Positions 5,717-43,850 of a stretch of DNA of 45,642 bases are shown piece by piece; positions within the stretch are counted from its first letter, which is position 1; the number at the start of each line of letters is the position of its first letter. The notes under the pieces are model-generated. The model did not search any database and was not told the origin of the DNA. It was given only the letters and a program-made list of their open reading frames with translations. The DNA comes from Myxococcaceae bacterium (lineage in GTDB: Bacteria > Myxococcota > Myxococcia > Myxococcales > Myxococcaceae): the NCBI GenBank assembly GCA_019686135.1, contig JADGHL010000029.1, positions 1-45,642 on the forward strand. Direction: 5' to 3'. Made by a program: the position numbers and the translations under genes.

Positions 5717-5956
5717 TCACGCCCGCCCGGACCACGCCGGCATCTTCGCCATCGTCGCGGTAGCGGTCCTCCGCGCGACGCCGGGATCGAGCCCCTGGGT
5801 GCGCTGGAGGAACGCGGTCATCCCGGCGAGCACCTCGTCGTAGCTCTTGAGCTGACCGTCCGGGTGGGCGCAGTGCCTGCAGTACTCCTTCGTCACGTCT
5901 CCCGAGGCGTGGTCTTCGGGCGTCCTCAGCGGCATGCCGCAGCTGGTGCAGTTCAT
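5717..5956 (-). CDS. Small zinc-ribbon domain protein
   Basis: A 79-residue protein beginning MNCTSCGMPL, with a zinc-ribbon arrangement CxxC (residues 3-6) and CRHC (26-29) and the downstream block LKSYDEVLAGMTAFL. This matches the small 'putative zinc ribbon' family (PF12674) often fused to, or encoded next to, transcription factors. The ATG at 5956 overlaps the TetR stop by four bases (ATGA) and is preceded by AGGAG inside the TetR gene, so translation is coupled. It may bind metal or assist the regulator, but no partner or target is shown by the sequence. A longer in-frame extension exists upstream but lies across the TetR gene and is rejected. Confidence 0.75.
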   Translation of the reverse strand: MNCTSCGMPLRTPEDHASGDVTKEYCRHCAHPDGQLKSYDEVLAGMTAFLQRTQGLDPGVARRTATATMAKMPAWSGRA

Positions 5957-6579
5957 CGCTTGCTCCTGCTCTTCGGTGTGGGGGTGGAGATGAGACCCAT
6001 GAAGTGATCCAGCAATTCGCGCCCATGGGTCTTCAGGGCCGACCGGCCCGGCGCGAACAGCTCGCGGTGGATGACGTAGTGGTGCACCAGCCCGATCCAG
6101 GTGTTGAACAGAAGGTGCAGCGGAATCTCGCGGATGCGGCCCGCCGCCATGTCGCGCGCGGCCGCTTCGGCGATGTGGTGCGCCACCGCCGACTGCACGC
6201 CGACCCACTCGGCGTCGAAGCCCTTCGGCAAGAGCGGCGCCTCGAGCAGAAGCCACCGCAGCTCGTCCTCCCGGTCGGCGAGGCAGTCCAGGTGCTTCGC
6301 GAGCACTTCGCGCAGCGGCGCATCCTGCGAGCCCAGCGCGTGCAACGCGTCGGTGATCTCGCGCGCCATCTCGCCGACGACCGCCGCCATCAACGCCTCG
6401 CGGGACGGGAAGTGCACGAACACCGACCCGTGTGACACGCGGGCCGCCTTCGCCACGTCCACCGTCCGCGTCCGGGCGAAGCCCCGTCGCGCGCACAGGC
6501 GCCGCGCGTGCTCGAGGATCCGCCGCCGCGTCTCGGCCTTCTGCGCGGCGCGCTGTGACTCAGGTGAGTGAGAACTCAT
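5953..6579 (-). CDS. TetR-family transcriptional regulator
   Basis: A 208-residue protein with a typical TetR N-terminal helix-turn-helix (about residues 15-62: TRRRILEHARRLCARRGFA, then VDVAKAARVSHGSVFVHFPSREAL) and an all-helical ligand-binding and dimer domain behind it. Family members are usually repressors released by a small molecule. The ATG at 6579 lies inside a cluster of TGAGT/ACTCA palindromes, suggesting autoregulation. The only co-transcribed gene visible is the overlapping zinc-ribbon gene; no divergent efflux or enzyme gene is present, so its targets are unknown. Confidence 0.9.
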   Translation of the reverse strand: MSSHSPESQRAAQKAETRRRILEHARRLCARRGFARTRTVDVAKAARVSHGSVFVHFPSREALMAAVVGEMAREITDALHALGSQDAPLREVLAKHLDCLADREDELRWLLLEAPLLPKGFDAEWVGVQSAVAHHIAEAAARDMAAGRIREIPLHLLFNTWIGLVHHYVIHRELFAPGRSALKTHGRELLDHFMGLISTPTPKSRSKR

Positions 6580-36625: not shown

Positions 36626-37870
36626 TCAGAAGTGCCCGTCGCAGGGCGTGCCCAGCGGCTGGCCGCGGTAGACGCCGAGCTGCGAGTAGATGAAGCGGGC
36701 GTGGTCCTCCACCGGCAGCCAGTTCAGCTTCGTGCGGCCCGGGCCGGCGATCCACTCCGCCTCGCCCGCGCGCGTCAGCTTGAGCTTCCCGCCGCCGGCG
36801 CGGAACACATCCCCGCTGCCATCGTGGGCGAGCACCTCCGCGGCGGATCCGCTGAGCGCGCCGGTGGGGCCGACATAGAGGTGGAAGTCCTGGTTGTCCT
36901 CCGGCGTGCGCGCCTGGTCGACGTAGAAGTAGTTGCCCTCGTCGTCGCGCGCGAGCGCGTAGGCCCGCCGCTGCCAGCGCACGTCGTAGAACTTCGCTCT
37001 GGCGAGCAGCTTCTTCGCCGCGGCGTCGGAGAGCTTCTGGAAGGGCACCTGCTGGCCGCCGCAGGTGAGCGTGTACCGGCCGTTCTTGAGCCCGAAGGAC
37101 GCCTCGGCCGGCACCTTCGCGCGGGGTTCCCAGAACACCACGTCGAAGGCGGTCTCCCCTTCGCGGCTGCCGCCGAAGACCCGCTGCGCGTAGAGCGCCT
37201 TCGCGTCCCCGGCGAAGTACTTCGTGTCGAAGCCCTGGAACGGGTCGACCGCCACGACGTAGTGGCCCTTCCCATCGGTGGTGACGATCGTCTTCTGCTT
37301 CGAGAGATCGTCCGGGAACGGTACGTCGCGGAGGGGCGGCGGGAGCGGCGCAGCGGTCGCCGAAGCCACGGGCGCGGAGGCGGACGCGGGCACCACCATC
37401 GGCGCCTGCGTCTGAGCGGCCGACGTGGCGAACAGCTCCTTCGAGACGGAGGGTAGATCGTCGAGGACGTCGTCGATGGTCCCGCCCTTCTTGCGCCGCG
37501 ACGCGGTGGCGACGGTGGCCCCGGTCTTCGCGTTCACCCGGTTCACCTGCAGCAGCCAGCTCTGGCCGACCCTAGAGAGGTTGCCGAGGATCACCTCGTC
37601 CACGTCGAGGGCGCCGGCCAACTCGGCGAGGCAGCTCTCGGTGCTGCAGCCCAGAAGCTCCTTCTGGCGCTCGACGCCCAGCACGGCCGACAGCTCCTGT
37701 GCCGTGACGATCTGCGCGAGGTTGAGCTTGCGCAGCTCCGCGGTGAGGGCGCCGGTGATGGAAGTGGCCATCGACTCGGTCACGCCTTCGCCCGGCGACA
37801 GCGGCATGAGGGCGATCTTCGTGGGAGCAGCGGACAGCGACAGGGCGACGATCAGGAGGGAGGCATTCAT
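36626..37870 (-). CDS. Periplasmic protein with a TolB/CsgG-like N-terminal domain
   Basis: A 414-residue secreted protein with a signal peptide (about 1-15, MNASLLIVALSLSAA). Residues 16-150 follow the alpha/beta pattern of TolB-N/CsgG-like domains widespread in Myxococcota: ALMPLSPGEGV, a conserved LGCSTESCLAELAGALDVDEV (in part), then LQVNRVNAKTGATVA and a basic RRKKGG. A Pro/Ala-rich linker (about 155-185) leads to a C-terminal domain of about 215 residues (FQGFDTKYFAGDAKAL, then YTLTCGGQQVPF and DVRWQRRAYALARDD) that was not recognised. It converges on tamB, three bases away. Role unknown; a periplasmic regulator or assembly factor is possible. Confidence 0.75.
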   Translation of the reverse strand: MNASLLIVALSLSAAPTKIALMPLSPGEGVTESMATSITGALTAELRKLNLAQIVTAQELSAVLGVERQKELLGCSTESCLAELAGALDVDEVILGNLSRVGQSWLLQVNRVNAKTGATVATASRRKKGGTIDDVLDDLPSVSKELFATSAAQTQAPMVVPASASAPVASATAAPLPPPLRDVPFPDDLSKQKTIVTTDGKGHYVVAVDPFQGFDTKYFAGDAKALYAQRVFGGSREGETAFDVVFWEPRAKVPAEASFGLKNGRYTLTCGGQQVPFQKLSDAAAKKLLARAKFYDVRWQRRAYALARDDEGNYFYVDQARTPEDNQDFHLYVGPTGALSGSAAEVLAHDGSGDVFRAGGGKLKLTRAGEAEWIAGPGRTKLNWLPVEDHARFIYSQLGVYRGQPLGTPCDGHF

Positions 37871-37949
37871 CCGCCCGCCCTTCTATCGGGGAGGACGCCC
37901 TTTGAACAACGTCAGCCGTGGACAGGTTGGAGGAAGAAGGGAGGAGGTC

Positions 37950-38642
37950 ATGCAGATCGGAATCATCGGGGCCGGCCACATCGGCGGGACGCTCACCCGC
38001 CGGCTCACCGCGCTCGGGCACGAGGTGAGGGTCGCCAACTCGCGCGGGCCGCACACGCTGCAGGCGCTCGCCCGCGAGACCGGTGCCACGCCCGTCGATG
38101 TCCGGGAGGTCGGTCGTGACGCGGACATCGTGATCGTCGCCATCCCGGAACGGTGCATCCCGACGCTGCCGCCGGGCGTGCTCGACTCGGCGCCGCCGGA
38201 CGCGGCGATCGTCGACACCGGCAACTTCTACCCGCGCCAGCGGGACGGCCGCATCGAGGAGATCGAAGCCGGGATGCCCGAGAGCCGCTGGGTGGAGAAG
38301 CACCTCGGACGTCCGGTGATCAAGGCGTTCAACAACATGTTCGCGGACCATCTCCTGCGCCGCGGGAAGCCGCGCGGAACGCCCGGACGCATCGCCCTGC
38401 CGATCGCCGGCGACGATCCGGCCGCCAAGGCGAAGGTGATGAAGCTGGTGGACGAGCTGGGGTTCGATCCGGTGGACGCGGGCGGCCTCGACGAATCCTG
38501 GCGGCAGCAGCCGGGTACGCCCGTGTACGCGACCGATCTGGACGTCGAAGGCGTGCGCCGCGCGCTCGCCGCCGCGCGACCCGAGCGCCGCCCCGAGTTC
38601 CGCGCCGAATCGCCCGAAGAGGGCATCCCTGCGCCCAGCTGA
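37950..38642 (+). CDS. NADPH-dependent F420 reductase-like (NADP oxidoreductase) protein
   Basis: A 230-residue Rossmann protein: GIIGAGHIGGTL at 4-15, VANSRGP near 28-34 for NADP phosphate binding, IVIVAIPE near 60-67, and KAFNNMF near 125-131. These match the coenzyme-F420-dependent NADP oxidoreductase family, which also includes many F420-independent reductases, so F420 use is not established; no F420 biosynthesis gene is in the window. The ATG at 37950 has a strong GGGAGGAG site; an in-frame extension back to 37425 runs through the divergent gene and is rejected. It is divergent from the TolB-like gene by 79 bases. Confidence 0.85.
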   Translation: MQIGIIGAGHIGGTLTRRLTALGHEVRVANSRGPHTLQALARETGATPVDVREVGRDADIVIVAIPERCIPTLPPGVLDSAPPDAAIVDTGNFYPRQRDGRIEEIEAGMPESRWVEKHLGRPVIKAFNNMFADHLLRRGKPRGTPGRIALPIAGDDPAAKAKVMKLVDELGFDPVDAGGLDESWRQQPGTPVYATDLDVEGVRRALAAARPERRPEFRAESPEEGIPAPS

Positions 38643-38652
38643 TGTTGCGCCG

Positions 38653-39162
38653 CTAGAGGCTCAGGCTGAGGCGGGCGCGTACGCGGAAGCAGGCGCGCAC
38701 GGTGAGTGTCCACGGATGCGTCGGGAGCGCTCCGGTGGCCACGGTGTCGAGCTCCGCGCGCGCACCCTCCAGCAGCGCGGTGATGTCCAACGGTTCCTCC
38801 GGGCGGATCAGCACGGCGCCCGTGTCGTCCAGCGTGCCATCCCACTCCAGCGCGGTCGGGTGGCCGTCCAGCGTCGCCATCACGGACGCCGCCTTCAGGA
38901 ACGAGAGGTCCGCCACACCCTGGCCGCGGAAAATCACCTTCGTCAGCGCGCCGGAGACCTGCTGTCCGGAGAGCTTCACGCGGAAGTCCTCCGGGAGCGC
39001 CCAGGTGCCGTGCTGTGTGAAGGTCTGTTCGGCGCCGAACGGCGTGGCGGGCACGTCGAAGGACTGGACGTCGTCGCAGATGTCCACGTCGGGCAGCCGG
39101 GCATCCACCAGCGGCCCGCAGGCGCAGAAGAGCAGGGCGGCAGAGAGCAGGGCGGCGCGCAT
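38653..39162 (-). CDS. Hypothetical lipoprotein
   Basis: A 169-residue predicted lipoprotein beginning MRAALLSAALLFCACG, with Cys13 and Cys15 in a lipobox-like context. The rest is beta-rich, with FRVKLSGQQVSGALTKVIF, a central VMATLDGHPTALEWDG and the tail RACFRVRARLSLSL, ending in alternating hydrophobic residues. It starts 14 bases after the barrel gene on the same strand, with GAGG eight bases before the ATG. The pair looks like an outer-membrane protein with its partner lipoprotein. Family not recognised. A longer in-frame extension to 39843 lies across the neighbouring gene and is rejected. Confidence 0.65.
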   Translation of the reverse strand: MRAALLSAALLFCACGPLVDARLPDVDICDDVQSFDVPATPFGAEQTFTQHGTWALPEDFRVKLSGQQVSGALTKVIFRGQGVADLSFLKAASVMATLDGHPTALEWDGTLDDTGAVLIRPEEPLDITALLEGARAELDTVATGALPTHPWTLTVRACFRVRARLSLSL

Positions 39163-39176
39163 CGGGAGGACCTCAC

Positions 39177-39809
39177 TCAGAAGAAGATCTCCGCGCCCAG
39201 CTGGAGCGACGGAGCGATCACCTCGAGCGTGGGCGTGGTGGCGGTGAGCGACTCGTCGCCCGACAGCTCGCGCAACTGAGCCTCGAGGCCGCCCAGGACG
39301 ATCGTGGTGCGGCTGATGCCGCCGCGCAGGAAGAACGACAGCCCGTCGGGTGCGCCCAGCTCGAGGCCGAGGAGAGCGGCGGCGTAGTCGTATCGGAGAT
39401 CGTCGAGCAGCGGCGCACGGAAGCTCTCGTCCGCCATCACCCAGCGCACCCATGGCTGTGCGTCGCCGACTGCGAATTGCCCCGCGTGCAGGCTCAGCGT
39501 GGGACGCACGAATGTGCGCAGGGGCGAGAGCACCAGGCCGGCCCGGGCGCCCGGGGCCATGCCGTTGGTCGCACCGCCGACCTCCAGCTGCAGCCAGCTC
39601 AACGGTCGCCACGCCAGCGACACGCCGGCGCCGGACGGCGCGCCCGCATCGAACACCAGGCCGAACCAGGCGCGCTCCGGCGCTTTGGGGGAGGGCGTCT
39701 CCGCCTCGGTGAGCGGCGGCGGAGAGAGGGTCGGCTGCCCGTCGGCGATGATGTGTGGAGCGGACGACGTGGTCGCGTGAACCGCCACCGCTGCGACGAG
39801 CGCCAGCAT
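39177..39809 (-). CDS. Small outer-membrane beta-barrel-like protein
   Basis: A 210-residue secreted protein. A short signal (MLALVAAVAVHATTSSA) precedes a Pro-rich stretch (about 25-45) and then strands of alternating polarity (FGLVFDAGAPSGAGVSLAWR, LQLEVGG, LGLELGAP, FFLRGGIS), ending in the aromatic terminus LQLGAEIFF. A C-terminal Phe is typical of outer-membrane barrels recognised by BamA. The ATG at 39809 is chosen because it begins the signal peptide; no ribosome site is visible, and a 10-bp-arm hairpin lies 10 bases before it. It leads a two-gene unit with the lipoprotein downstream. Function unknown. Confidence 0.65.
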   Translation of the reverse strand: MLALVAAVAVHATTSSAPHIIADGQPTLSPPPLTEAETPSPKAPERAWFGLVFDAGAPSGAGVSLAWRPLSWLQLEVGGATNGMAPGARAGLVLSPLRTFVRPTLSLHAGQFAVGDAQPWVRWVMADESFRAPLLDDLRYDYAAALLGLELGAPDGLSFFLRGGISRTTIVLGGLEAQLRELSGDESLTATTPTLEVIAPSLQLGAEIFF

Positions 39810-39819
39810 GCGTTCGGAG

Positions 39820-39852
39820 CTGTGCAACGCGTCTGCCACCCACGTTGCACAG
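39820..39852. promoter_or_regulatory. Perfect 10-bp-arm inverted repeat upstream of the barrel gene
   Basis: CTGTGCAACG (39820-39829) and CGTTGCACAG (39843-39852) are exact inverted copies 13 bases apart, ending 10 bases before the minus-strand ATG at 39809. It can be an operator for a dimeric regulator or a 5'-leader hairpin in the mRNA. Confidence 0.6.
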
Positions 39853-39854
39853 GG

Positions 39855-39913
39855 ACGGACGGGTGGATCCACGGTGTCAAAGCCACCGCGGAGGTCACGT
39901 TGGACCCGTCCGT
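39855..39913. promoter_or_regulatory. Second inverted repeat in the same divergent region
   Basis: ACGGACGGGT (39855-39864) and ACCCGTCCGT (39904-39913) match perfectly, 39 bases apart, immediately beside the first inverted repeat. The layout is consistent with DNA looping between two binding sites or with a long imperfect stem. Function unknown. Confidence 0.4.
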
Positions 39914-40025
39914 TCGCTACCCCGCTGCCCCACCAGCAGTTGACTGAATAGGGCGGGCGCTCGCACGTCGATGGCCGCCGGCAGTACGCTTGGAAGTCGC
40001 CGGGCCAAAACGCGGGAGCCCCCTC

Positions 40026-40895
40026 ATGTCCGTGCGGATCCCCTCGGGTGCGCTGACGTGCCTCGTAACGCTGATGGCGCTGCACCCCGCTCGCGCCCAG
40101 GCGCAGTCCTCCAGCATCTCCTGCTTCCACGCGTCGTCCACCGCGCAGGTGGGGACCGTCACCGACGTCGGCAACGTCAACGTCAACGTCAGCAACGTCT
40201 CCACGCCCGCACCCGGCACCGTCTCCGGTTCCACCACCGCCGGCAGCAGCGCCGACGCGCCGCTCTCCGGAACCTCCAGCGGCGGCGGGAGCGCCGAAGG
40301 CATCCTGATGATGGCGGTCATCGCCGCCGCAGCCCTACCGGTGGTGGTCTACGCGGTCGACTCCGACGCGGAGGACTTCCAGGTGCAGCGGTACCACTGC
40401 CCGTCGTTCGACGTGCACGCCACCGCCGGAGCGATGAGCTTGCCATCCGATCCGCGCTACATGACCGGGATGGCCGGCGCGCGCGCGACCTTCGCGATGA
40501 ACTGGTACGGCGTGGACCTCGGCTACGAGACCAGCTTCATCCAGGGCGCCTGGGGCGCGCTCGACGCGCACTTCCTTCTGCGTCCGCCGCCGAAGAAGCA
40601 CATCGACGGCGCGTTCGCGGTGGGCCTCAGGCGCGTGGTGTTCGGCGGCGCGGAGAACGACGGGATCGAGCTCGCGCTGCCGCACCGGTACATGCTCGGG
40701 CATTACGGTGACCGGTCGTTTGCGATCGAGGTCGATCCCGGCGTGCTCTTCGGGATCCGCGGCATCGACTACCGGCTCGATGCCGGGCTCTCCTTCCCCG
40801 CGGGCGTGATGAACCTCCGCTTCGGCATGCGGGTGGTCTCGTTCGACACCCACCTGCGTGCCGGTGCCTACGCCGGCTTCAATTTCGGCGCGTAG
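40026..40895 (+). CDS. Secreted outer-membrane-like protein with a Ser/Thr/Gly-rich linker and a beta-rich domain
   Basis: A 289-residue protein: a signal peptide (about 1-24, ending ARAQA), a linker of low complexity rich in Val, Asn, Ser and Gly (NVNVNVSNVS near 50-60), a hydrophobic segment ILMMAVIAAAALPVVVYAV (about 92-110) and a beta-rich C-terminal region ending RAGAYAGFNFGA that resembles a small barrel (FAVGLRRVVFGG, YRLDAGLSFP). The hydrophobic segment in the middle is odd for an outer-membrane protein. The ATG at 40026 is preferred to an in-frame start at 39990 because the signal peptide begins there and GGAG lies upstream. It is convergent with aceA. Function not recognised. Confidence 0.65.
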   Translation: MSVRIPSGALTCLVTLMALHPARAQAQSSSISCFHASSTAQVGTVTDVGNVNVNVSNVSTPAPGTVSGSTTAGSSADAPLSGTSSGGGSAEGILMMAVIAAAALPVVVYAVDSDAEDFQVQRYHCPSFDVHATAGAMSLPSDPRYMTGMAGARATFAMNWYGVDLGYETSFIQGAWGALDAHFLLRPPPKKHIDGAFAVGLRRVVFGGAENDGIELALPHRYMLGHYGDRSFAIEVDPGVLFGIRGIDYRLDAGLSFPAGVMNLRFGMRVVSFDTHLRAGAYAGFNFGA

Positions 40896-40904
40896 ACCCG
40901 TCCG

Positions 40905-42182
40905 TCAGTGGAACTGCGTCGCCTCCGTGCTTTCGTCGAGCGCGGTGGTGGACGAGGTGCCGCAGGAGACGATCTGGCTGATCTCGTCGAAGTAGCCGGT
41001 GCCGACCTCGTGCTGGTGCCGCGTGGCGGTGTAGCCGTACTGCTCCGATGCGAACTCCGCCTGCTGCAGCCGGGAGTACGCCGCCATGCCCTCCTTCGCG
41101 TACGCGCGGGCCAGCTCGAACATCGAGTGGTTGAGCGCGTGGAAGCCGGCGAGCGTGACGAACTGGAACTTGTAGCCCATCGCCCCGAGCTCGCGCTGGA
41201 AGCGGGCGATGGTCGCGTCGTCGAGGTGCTTCTTCCAGTTGAACGACGGCGAGCAGTTGTACGCCAGCATCTTGTTCGGGAACTTCGAGCGGATCCCCTC
41301 CGCGAAGGCTTTCGCCTCCTCCAGGTCCGGCGTGGAGGTCTCGCACCAGATCAGGTCTGCGTACGGCGCGTAGGCCAGCCCGCGGGCGATCGCCCACTCC
41401 AGGCCGCCGCGGGCGCGGAAGAAGCCCTCCGCCGTGCGCTCACCCGTGAGGAACGGCCTGTCGCGCTCGTCGATGTCGGAGGTGAGCAGCTTCGCGGAGT
41501 GCGCGTCGGTGCGGGCGATCAGCACGGTGGGGACGCCGCACACGTCCGCGGCCAGCCGTGCCGCCACCAGGTGCCGGATGAACTGCTGCACCGGGATGAG
41601 CACCTTGCCGCCGAGGTGGCCGCACTTCTTCTCCGAGGCGAGCTGGTCCTCGTAGTGCACCCCCGCCGCGCCCGCTTCAATCATCGCCTTCATCAGCTCG
41701 AAGGCATTGAGCGGGCCGCCGAAGCCGGCCTCTGCGTCGGCGACGATCGGCGCGTACCACCAGGTGCCGTGCTTGCCCTCGCTGTGGTCGATCTGATCCG
41801 CCCGCTGCAGCGCGCAGTTGATCCGCTTCACCATCTGCGGCACCGAGTTCGCCGGGTAGAGCGACTGGTCCGGGTAGGTCTGCGCGGCGATGTTGCCGTC
41901 CGCCGCCACCTGCCAGCCCGAGAGGTAGATGGCCTTGAGGCCCGCGCGGACCTGCTGCACCGCCTGTTGCCCGGTGATCGCCCCGAGCGCGGGGATGAAG
42001 TCCTCGGTCGTCAGCAGCTCCCACAGCCGGCGTGCGCCCACGTCCGCGAGCGTGTACTGGATGTGCAGCGAGCCCCTGAGCCGCTCCACGTCCGCCGTCG
42101 AATACGGACGGACCACGCCCTCCCATCGACTATCGGAGAAGGTGTCGCCCGAATGCGGGCCCTTGCCGTTCTTCATCGCCAT
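40905..42182 (-). CDS. aceA: Isocitrate lyase
   Basis: A 425-residue cytoplasmic enzyme that cleaves isocitrate into succinate and glyoxylate, the first step of the glyoxylate shunt. The active-site motif KKCGHLGG (185-192) carries the catalytic Cys187; [15 protein letters not shown] (142-156) and NCSPSFNW are further family signatures. Length is normal for the E. coli type. A strong AGGAGG site precedes the ATG. It lies 39 bases downstream of aceB and is almost certainly co-transcribed, giving the order aceB-aceA. There is no isocitrate dehydrogenase kinase (aceK) behind it; the next gene is convergent. Confidence 0.97.
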
Positions 42183-42221
42183 GTGCCGCTCCCTCCTCTT
42201 GGTGCTGCAGGTGTGGCTGCG

Positions 42222-43850
42222 TCAGCTCGCGTGCCTGGCCTCGTTCCGAATCAGCGCGTCGTAGGCCGGCAGGGTGAGGAACTCCTCGAAGGTGGGGGAG
42301 AGCACCAATCTCTCGAAGATCTCCGTCGCCTGGCGGATGTGACCCTTCTCGAACCGCTCGTCGCCGAGCGTGCGGCGGATCTTCGCCAGCTCCTCGTCGA
42401 GGATCTGCCTGAAGAGCTCCGGGGTGACCTTTCGGCCGTCGTCGAGGGTGGCGCCATGGTGCAGCCACTGCCACACCTGGGCGCGGCTGATCTCCGCCGT
42501 CGCCGCGTCCTCCATCAGGTTGTACAGCGGCACGCAGCCCAGCCCGCCCAGCCACGCCTCCAGGTACAGGAGCCCGACGTTGACGTTCTGGCGAAGCCCC
42601 GCCTCGGTGCGCGTGCCGGTGGGGATCTCGACGAGCTGCGCGGGCGTGACCTGCACGTCCTCACGCTTCCGGGTGGCGATCTGATTCGGCCCCTTCATCT
42701 CCGCGTCGAAGATGGCCTTCGCGATCGGCACCAGCCCCGGGTGCGCGACCCAGGTCCCATCGTGTCCGTCCTTCACCTCACGAAGCTTGTCCTGCCGGAC
42801 CTTCTCCAGCGCGACGGTGTTCGCCTCCGGGTCGTCCTTGATGGGGATCTGCGCTGCCATGCCGCCCATCGCGTGGACGTTGCGCCGGTGGCAGGTCTTG
42901 ATGACCAGCTGGGTATAGGCGCGCATGAACGGCTGGGTCATCCCCACCTGCGCGCGGTCCGGGAGGACGTACGCCGCGTGCGCCCGGAACTTCTTGATGA
43001 AGGAGAAGATGTAGTCCCAGCGGCCGCAGTTCAGCCCCGCGGAGTGCTCCCGGAGCTCCCAGAGGATCTCGTCCATCTGGAACGACGCCGGCAGCGTTTC
43101 GATCAGCACCGTCGCCTTGATCGTCCCCCGCGGGATGTCGAGCGCCTGCTGGGCGAAGAGGAACACGTCGTTCCACAGCCGCGCCTCGAGGTGGTGCTCG
43201 AGCTTGGGCAGGTAGAAGTATGGGCCCGTCCCGCGCTGCAGAAGCTCGCGCGCGTTGTGGAAGAAGTAGAGGCCGAAGTCGAAGAGCGCGCCGGGGATGG
43301 GGCGGCCCTGGACCTCGACGTGACGTTCGGGCAGGTGCCACCCGCGCGGGCGCACGAGCAAGGTCGCGGTCCGTTCGTTGAGCGCGTACTCCTTCCCGTT
43401 CGGCGCGGTGAAGCGGATGGTGCGGCGGACCGCGTCGCGCAGGTTGATCTGCCCCTGGACGTTGTTGTCCCAGGTCGGCGCGTTCGAGTCCTCGAAGTCC
43501 GCCATGAAGACGTTCGCGCCGGAGTTGAGCGCGTTGATGATCATCTTCCGGTCCACCGGGCCGGTGATCTCCACGCGCCGGTCGATCAGGTCTTCCGGCA
43601 GCGGCGCCACGGTCCATTCGCTGTCGCGGATCTCCCGGGTCTCCGGCAGAAAGTCCGGCAGCTCGCCGCGGTCGAAGCGGGCCTGCACCACCTTGCGGCG
43701 TGCGAGCAGGTCCTCCACCCGCGCCGAGAAACGCGTGGCCAGCGCCTCCAGGAACGCGAGCGCCTTCGGGGTGAGGATCTCTTCGTAGCCGGGCCGCATC
43801 GCCCCCTTCACGACCAGCTGCTTCGGCCTGTCCGCCATGCTGTCCGCCAT
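42222..43850 (-). CDS. aceB: Malate synthase A
   Basis: A 542-residue enzyme condensing glyoxylate with acetyl-CoA to give malate, the second step of the glyoxylate shunt. Seen: RREVITGPVD-like block near the N-third ([13 protein letters not shown]), [40 protein letters not shown] and [15 protein letters not shown], all typical of malate synthase A; length is normal. The ATG at 43850 has GGAGCG upstream. As the first gene of the aceB-aceA unit it is preceded by AT-rich DNA with a TTGACA box. Together the two genes allow growth on acetate or fatty acids. Confidence 0.97.

Follow-up and report, generated by a model that had tools for sequence, protein, structure and literature searches.

Do two perfect inverted repeats that lie side by side between divergent genes regulate those genes, or are they incidental features of an ordinary promoter region? 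The question is raised by positions 39820-39913 of the window, by which we mean the whole stretch of DNA that was analyzed. The window (45,642 bp) is an entire contig, C106, of a draft assembly of 5.5 Mb in 245 contigs with 97% completeness and 70% G+C, and its gene content includes malate synthase, isocitrate lyase, TamB, and Omp85. Together with the large size of related genomes, these genes suggest a myxobacterial origin.

The two dyads and the genes that flank them

The dyads sit in a 216-bp gap between a minus-strand gene and a plus-strand gene. The features of the locus are as follows.

39820..39852, no strand assigned: dyad 1, perfect 10-bp arms CTGTGCAACG (39820-39829) and CGTTGCACAG (39843-39852) separated by 13 bases
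39855..39913, no strand assigned: dyad 2, perfect 10-bp arms ACGGACGGGT (39855-39864) and ACCCGTCCGT (39904-39913) separated by 39 bases
39177..39809, minus strand: gene of a small putative outer-membrane barrel protein, 210 residues from the ATG at 39809, no Pfam family
38653..39162, minus strand: gene of a putative lipoprotein, 169 residues from the ATG at 39162, located 14 bp past the barrel stop codon
40026..40895, plus strand: divergent gene of a putative secreted or outer-membrane protein, 289 residues, no Pfam family

The preliminary description of this DNA had reported two adjacent perfect inverted repeats with 10-bp arms at 39820-39913, and both proved to be exact at these positions. 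Dyad 1 does end 10 bases (39810-39819) from the minus-strand ATG at 39809, as had been claimed. In the 33-bp dyad 1 element 13 of the 16 symmetric position pairs are complementary and the arms are 23 bp apart, which is about two helical turns, whereas dyad 2, which begins 2 bp beyond dyad 1, has a much longer spacer (39 vs 13 bases). The barrel gene was said to lack a visible ribosome site, and the duplex energy calculated for the ATG at 39809 (+0.1 kcal/mol) agrees with this. For the divergent gene a normal ribosome site was found, GGGAG, at -6.6 kcal/mol.

The barrel assignment of the 39177-39809 product is putative; it was made in the preliminary description and agrees with the sequence by eye. 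Counting the source genome each time, 34 of 60 genomes have a relative of the barrel protein, 13 of 58 one of the lipoprotein, and 11 of 60 one of the divergent gene product. A search by tblastn of the genome-contig collection gave no named relatives of the barrel protein, nor did plasmids. The description of the first two genes as a pair was upheld: a barrel match is followed on the same strand by a lipoprotein match in at least 10 other genomes (G003, G012, G017, G023, G032, G039, G056, G062, G077, and G081). Because the two genes are side by side in these genomes we regard them as a real unit, and the lipoprotein gene is likely co-transcribed with the barrel gene. The unit (38653-39809) is itself of note as a conserved two-gene pair in which both members lack Pfam families.

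The divergent gene was not seen at any of the 26 other barrel or lipoprotein loci examined, and the barrel, lipoprotein, isocitrate lyase, and malate synthase genes were not seen beside 11 other loci of the divergent gene (10 genomes, flanks of up to 1.5 kb). Since the neighbors were not found together elsewhere, the divergent gap that carries the dyads has been seen only in the source genome.

Chance expectation and recurrence of the dyads

The frequency of inverted repeats was determined by counting those with perfect arms of at least 10 bp and spacers of 3-60 bases, and two repeats were scored as an adjacent pair when the gap between them was 20 bp or less. Dinucleotide shuffles were used for the window. 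The window contains 10 such repeats and 200 of its shuffles gave 9.7 ± 3.1. In 90 kb of other loci of the same genome there were 22 repeats versus 18 in shuffles, and 400 kb of sampled DNA from this genome gave 101 versus 72. This 1.4-fold excess of real DNA over shuffles may reflect functional inverted repeats, such as terminators. Single 10-bp dyads are therefore common here, given their density in the 400-kb sample and a window count equal to the shuffle mean. As perfect 10-bp dyads with spacers of up to 60 bases are routine in this genome, recurrence or conservation is needed before a regulatory reading is adopted.

The adjacent pair is rarer. It was present in 10 of the 200 window shuffles, two repeats were found in 7 of 20,000 shuffles of the 216-bp gap, and the 400-kb sample contained no adjacent pairs versus 0.15 expected from shuffles. 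Thus, the assertion that these dyads are unlikely by chance fails for each dyad taken singly and retains some force for the two together. A few such adjacent pairs per genome are expected by chance, mostly within genes, and the present pair is only mildly rarer than chance. Because the site was picked for having the pair, this slight peculiarity of the locus does not demonstrate function.

A survey of perfect inverted repeats in bacterial genomes (PMC13155455) reports that such repeats cluster between genes and ahead of transcription start sites. The repeats treated there and the present dyads share 10-bp arms, an intergenic location, and proximity to a gene start. In contrast, the spacers here are 13 and 39 bases versus the 8-bp limit given there, and so dyads 1 and 2 would not be counted in that survey.

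A further copy of one arm, which the preliminary description had not included, is found 1 kb away.

40896..40905, minus strand: third exact copy of the dyad 2 arm, at the point where the genes 40026-40895 and 40905-42182 converge

The final base of this copy is also the final base of the stop codon of the 40905-42182 gene. An 11-bp direct repeat, GACCCGTCCGT, found at 39903 (39903-39913) and at 40895, flanks the gene 40026-40895, and was considered as a target-site duplication of an inserted gene. By our own estimate a further copy of GACCCGTCCGT would be present within 1 kb by chance in roughly 1% of cases.

Copies of the dyads had been suggested to be worth seeking genome-wide, but dyad 1 is present in a single copy in its own genome, even when up to three mismatches are allowed. 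The dyad 1 arm has 17 copies in the 5.5-Mb assembly, and the 15 that lie elsewhere have no inverted partner within 100 bp that matches at more than 7 of 10 positions. The dyad 2 arm has 19 copies, of which the 16 off this contig have inverted partners within 100 bp that never exceed 8 of 10. Hence, none of the 31 other arm sites (16 + 15) in the assembly has a good inverted partner within 100 bp. Among 145 genomes of the order the dyad 1 pattern (up to three mismatches) was found in 28, the source genome included, versus 31 of 145 for a reversed control, the latter figure being a hand count. The sole perfect match among the 145 genomes was the site itself. In the named collection (84,980) the exact 18-base form of dyad 1 was present in six contigs of five genomes, none titled as a myxobacterium; the chance expectation, calculated at equal base frequencies, is about four places.

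Conservation was also sought upstream of barrel relatives. Among the 33 other genomes that have a barrel relative, 19 were examined (one locus each) over the 260 bp that precede the match, and neither dyad was present in any of them (0 of 19); these matches may begin away from the start codon. Perfect inverted repeats with arms of at least 9 bp were present in six of these 19 regions and were unrelated in sequence; locus L017 has two. A DNA search with a 231-bp region spanning the site gave matches in 58 of 60 genomes at E ≤ 1, in short pieces only. Among the matches listed, the best that was not to itself (E 0.0016, 29 bases) lies outside the dyads and the best that touches part of dyad 2 has an E value of 0.02 over 39 bases; we take these short matches to be due to chance. 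A dispersed repeat of the REP or MITE type was rejected, as dyad 1 occurs once and the next match of the 231-bp region in its own genome, among those listed, has an E value of 0.09 over 23 bases. Note that the 60- and 145-genome sets contain no second genome of the source genus, and a function restricted to the species would therefore escape these comparisons.

These data bear on the proposal of regulator sites with looping made in the preliminary description, under which a repressor that dimerizes or loops would control the barrel-lipoprotein unit by binding the dyads. The promoter-proximal position and the symmetric arms of dyad 1, with their spacing of about two helical turns, speak for the proposal, whereas the dyad 2 arms (49 bp apart) are in our judgement ill-suited to a single dimer. 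A TetR-type regulator gene (5953-6579) is present in the window, though 33 kb from the dyads; its TetR_N domain was the only regulator domain that Pfam detected in 31 chosen open reading frames of the window, and the scan of the neighboring genes (36626-43850) gave a regulator domain in none. No sign of a regulon was seen because the arms are unpaired elsewhere and the dyad 1 pattern is no commoner in the order than its control. A regulon-wide operator is thus not supported, recurrence having been found neither at other promoters of the genome nor in relatives, and what survives of the looping proposal is a site of single use. We consider such a local operator improbable.

Hairpins, translation starts, and a sigma-54-like element

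The dyads had also been suggested to form a leader hairpin that masks translation of the barrel gene. The 106-nt region folded as RNA gave -53.8 kcal/mol for the minus strand (z -3.35), a value equalled by 1 of 200 shuffles, and -48.2 kcal/mol for the plus strand (z -1.74). Taken alone, dyad 1 gave z-scores of -2.4 (minus) and -2.8 (plus) and dyad 2 gave -3.5 (minus) and -2.9 (plus), and the plus strand of the region folded as DNA gave -2.48. As the region was selected for containing repeats, the z-scores exaggerate the evidence. A covariance model built on both hairpins had no match but itself at E ≤ 0.1 in 60 genomes (strict filters, a ceiling of 65 scored candidates per genome, none of the source genus besides itself). 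Over 38 sequence sources the same model gave six matches at E ≤ 1: itself, a weak match in the window (E 0.012) on the opposite strand of dyad 1, which it overlaps, and four others that were weaker still. Both dyads thus fold well on the minus strand of this preselected region, and relatives of the fold were not found in the 60 genomes. The region matched no known RNA family in Rfam, and an intrinsic terminator was rejected since no site with a G+C-rich stem and a T run was found in 39600-40200.

A more specific form of translational control would be possible if the barrel gene began within hairpin 1: the loop would hold the ribosome site, the stem would lock the start codon, and output would depend on whether the hairpin opens.

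39825..39827, minus strand: candidate alternative TTG start of the barrel gene (TTG 39827), in the 3' arm of hairpin 1

A ribosome-site-like GGTGG (39840-39836) lies 8 nt upstream of this TTG in the hairpin 1 loop. The duplex energy for TTG 39827 is -5.8 kcal/mol, within the range of five other starts of the window (-5.5 to -12.5), whereas ATG 39809 and GTG 39839 gave +0.1 and +0.9. In three modelled transcripts GGTGG was unpaired (0.91-1.0) and the TTG was fully paired, and a start at the TTG would give a signal peptide of 18 residues, a usual length as read by eye. However, this control is predicted from a single sequence, TTG starts are uncommon, and hairpin 1 folded together with the first part of the gene has a z-score of -0.19, no better than shuffles. 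Moreover, hairpin 1 had no structural relative in the 60 genomes (strict filters), and dyad 2 plays no part in this scheme. The start called at GTG 31997 of the window is also without a ribosome site (+0.7), and thus a missing site may only mean that the start was miscalled. Overall, we consider it improbable that hairpin 1 sets translation of the barrel gene.

The missing ribosome site could also have a transcriptional explanation. A sigma-54-like element coincides with dyad 1 close before the barrel gene and in the same orientation.

39823..39838, minus strand: candidate sigma-54-like -24/-12 element TGGCA-N6-TTGCA, TGGCAGACGCGTTGCA, matching 10 of 12 consensus positions

The consensus used was TGGCACG-N4-TTGC(T/A), as given in PMC9765219, and the 10 matching positions include the GG-N10-GC core. 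The candidate -12 element lies within the dyad 1 arm 39820-39829 and the predicted RNA start, at about 39812, is 3 nt ahead of ATG 39809. The barrel-lipoprotein unit would then be expressed from a nearly leaderless mRNA, which would account for an ATG without a ribosome site, and the dyads would be in promoter DNA, outside the mRNA. RpoN is encoded in the genome (PF04552, 215.7 bits); its loss is reported to be lethal in Myxococcus xanthus (PMC12316311). On both strands of 400 kb there are 14 sites that match at least 10 of 12 positions, from which 0.0006 are expected per 36-bp stretch of one strand. The exact TGGCAN6TTGCA is found twice in 5.5 Mb and the second copy is a short distance ahead of an ATG that AGGAGG precedes, although the frame that follows is less than 100 residues and a gene is unproven there. 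The reversed control of the exact core was also found twice, and sigma-54-like sites are not enriched in the window (2 versus 3.6 in shuffles). Nla28-like enhancer half-sites were at background (2 versus 1.7 expected).

Note that the element was found post hoc. In the 400 bp before the match at 25 loci of barrel relatives a 10/12 site was present at one (L016), where it overlaps the likely start codon, and 9/12 sites were present at five further loci. In addition, a leader of 3 nt is unusual and the signal peptide that begins at ATG 39809 would be short, as read by eye. The sigma-54 promoters of actB, nla6, and nla28 of Myxococcus xanthus, as described in PMC9765219, share with the candidate the GG-N10-GC core and TTGC(T/A), and the 10/12 match is comparable to those of the promoters listed there; RpoN is also present here. 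Unlike those promoters, the candidate is a sequence prediction, with a predicted start 3 nt from the ATG, and no enhancer site was identified for it. A search of the literature on leaderless transcripts together with Myxococcus gave nothing on myxobacterial starts, judged by title. We consider it unlikely, although less so than control by hairpin 1, that dyad 1 overlaps a functional sigma-54 promoter. If it did, the locus would provide a near-leaderless sigma-54 promoter for two uncharacterized envelope genes whose pairing is repeated across several related genera. The sigma-54 and TTG proposals are mutually exclusive. One or the other could account for the absent ribosome site, and dyad 2 has no part in them. 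A composite scheme, in which dyad 1 is self-mirrored such that its central TGSCA is the -24 box and the arm TTGCA is the -12 box, a bound dimer blocks the promoter, and dyad 2 is an upstream activator or looping site, seems very improbable.

Interpretation of the dyad pair

On balance, we favor the explanation that the dyads are incidental inverted repeats of an ordinary 216-bp divergent promoter region and that the pair has no dedicated mechanism. The barrel-lipoprotein unit and the divergent gene would each be transcribed from ordinary promoters within the gap. The repeats are exact, dyad 1 is present in a single copy, conservation was not found in the genomes compared, and single repeats of this kind are near background; from these observations we infer that the dyads lack function. 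Several findings were counted against this explanation: the rarity of the pair in shuffles of the gap and in the 400-kb sample, the minus-strand fold, the excess of inverted repeats in real DNA, the third dyad 2 arm, and the coincidence of dyad 1 with the sigma-54-like element. Incidental repeats are ranked as most likely, followed by overlap with a sigma-54 promoter, translational control by hairpin 1, and a local operator. If the repeats are incidental, there is little at stake.

Other repeats were seen in the course of this work. Three loci on other contigs of the source genome, L041, L044, and L053 (C22, C72, and C203), contain near-identical stretches of at least 45 bases that resemble copies of a mobile element. 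At L081 and L083, loci in two genomes of the same genus, a different and strong nested inverted repeat lies about 220-270 bp before the barrel match, with CCCAGGTGGG and CCCACCTGGG inside CGGGTTTCC and GGAAACCCG; it is possibly the terminator of the preceding gene. Finally, L081, L083, and L085 have a block, CGCGAATGATG-CC-C-GGGCCGGAA, directly before the barrel gene that by eye is common to two genera, and this block is perhaps a conserved promoter of the barrel gene or its true start.
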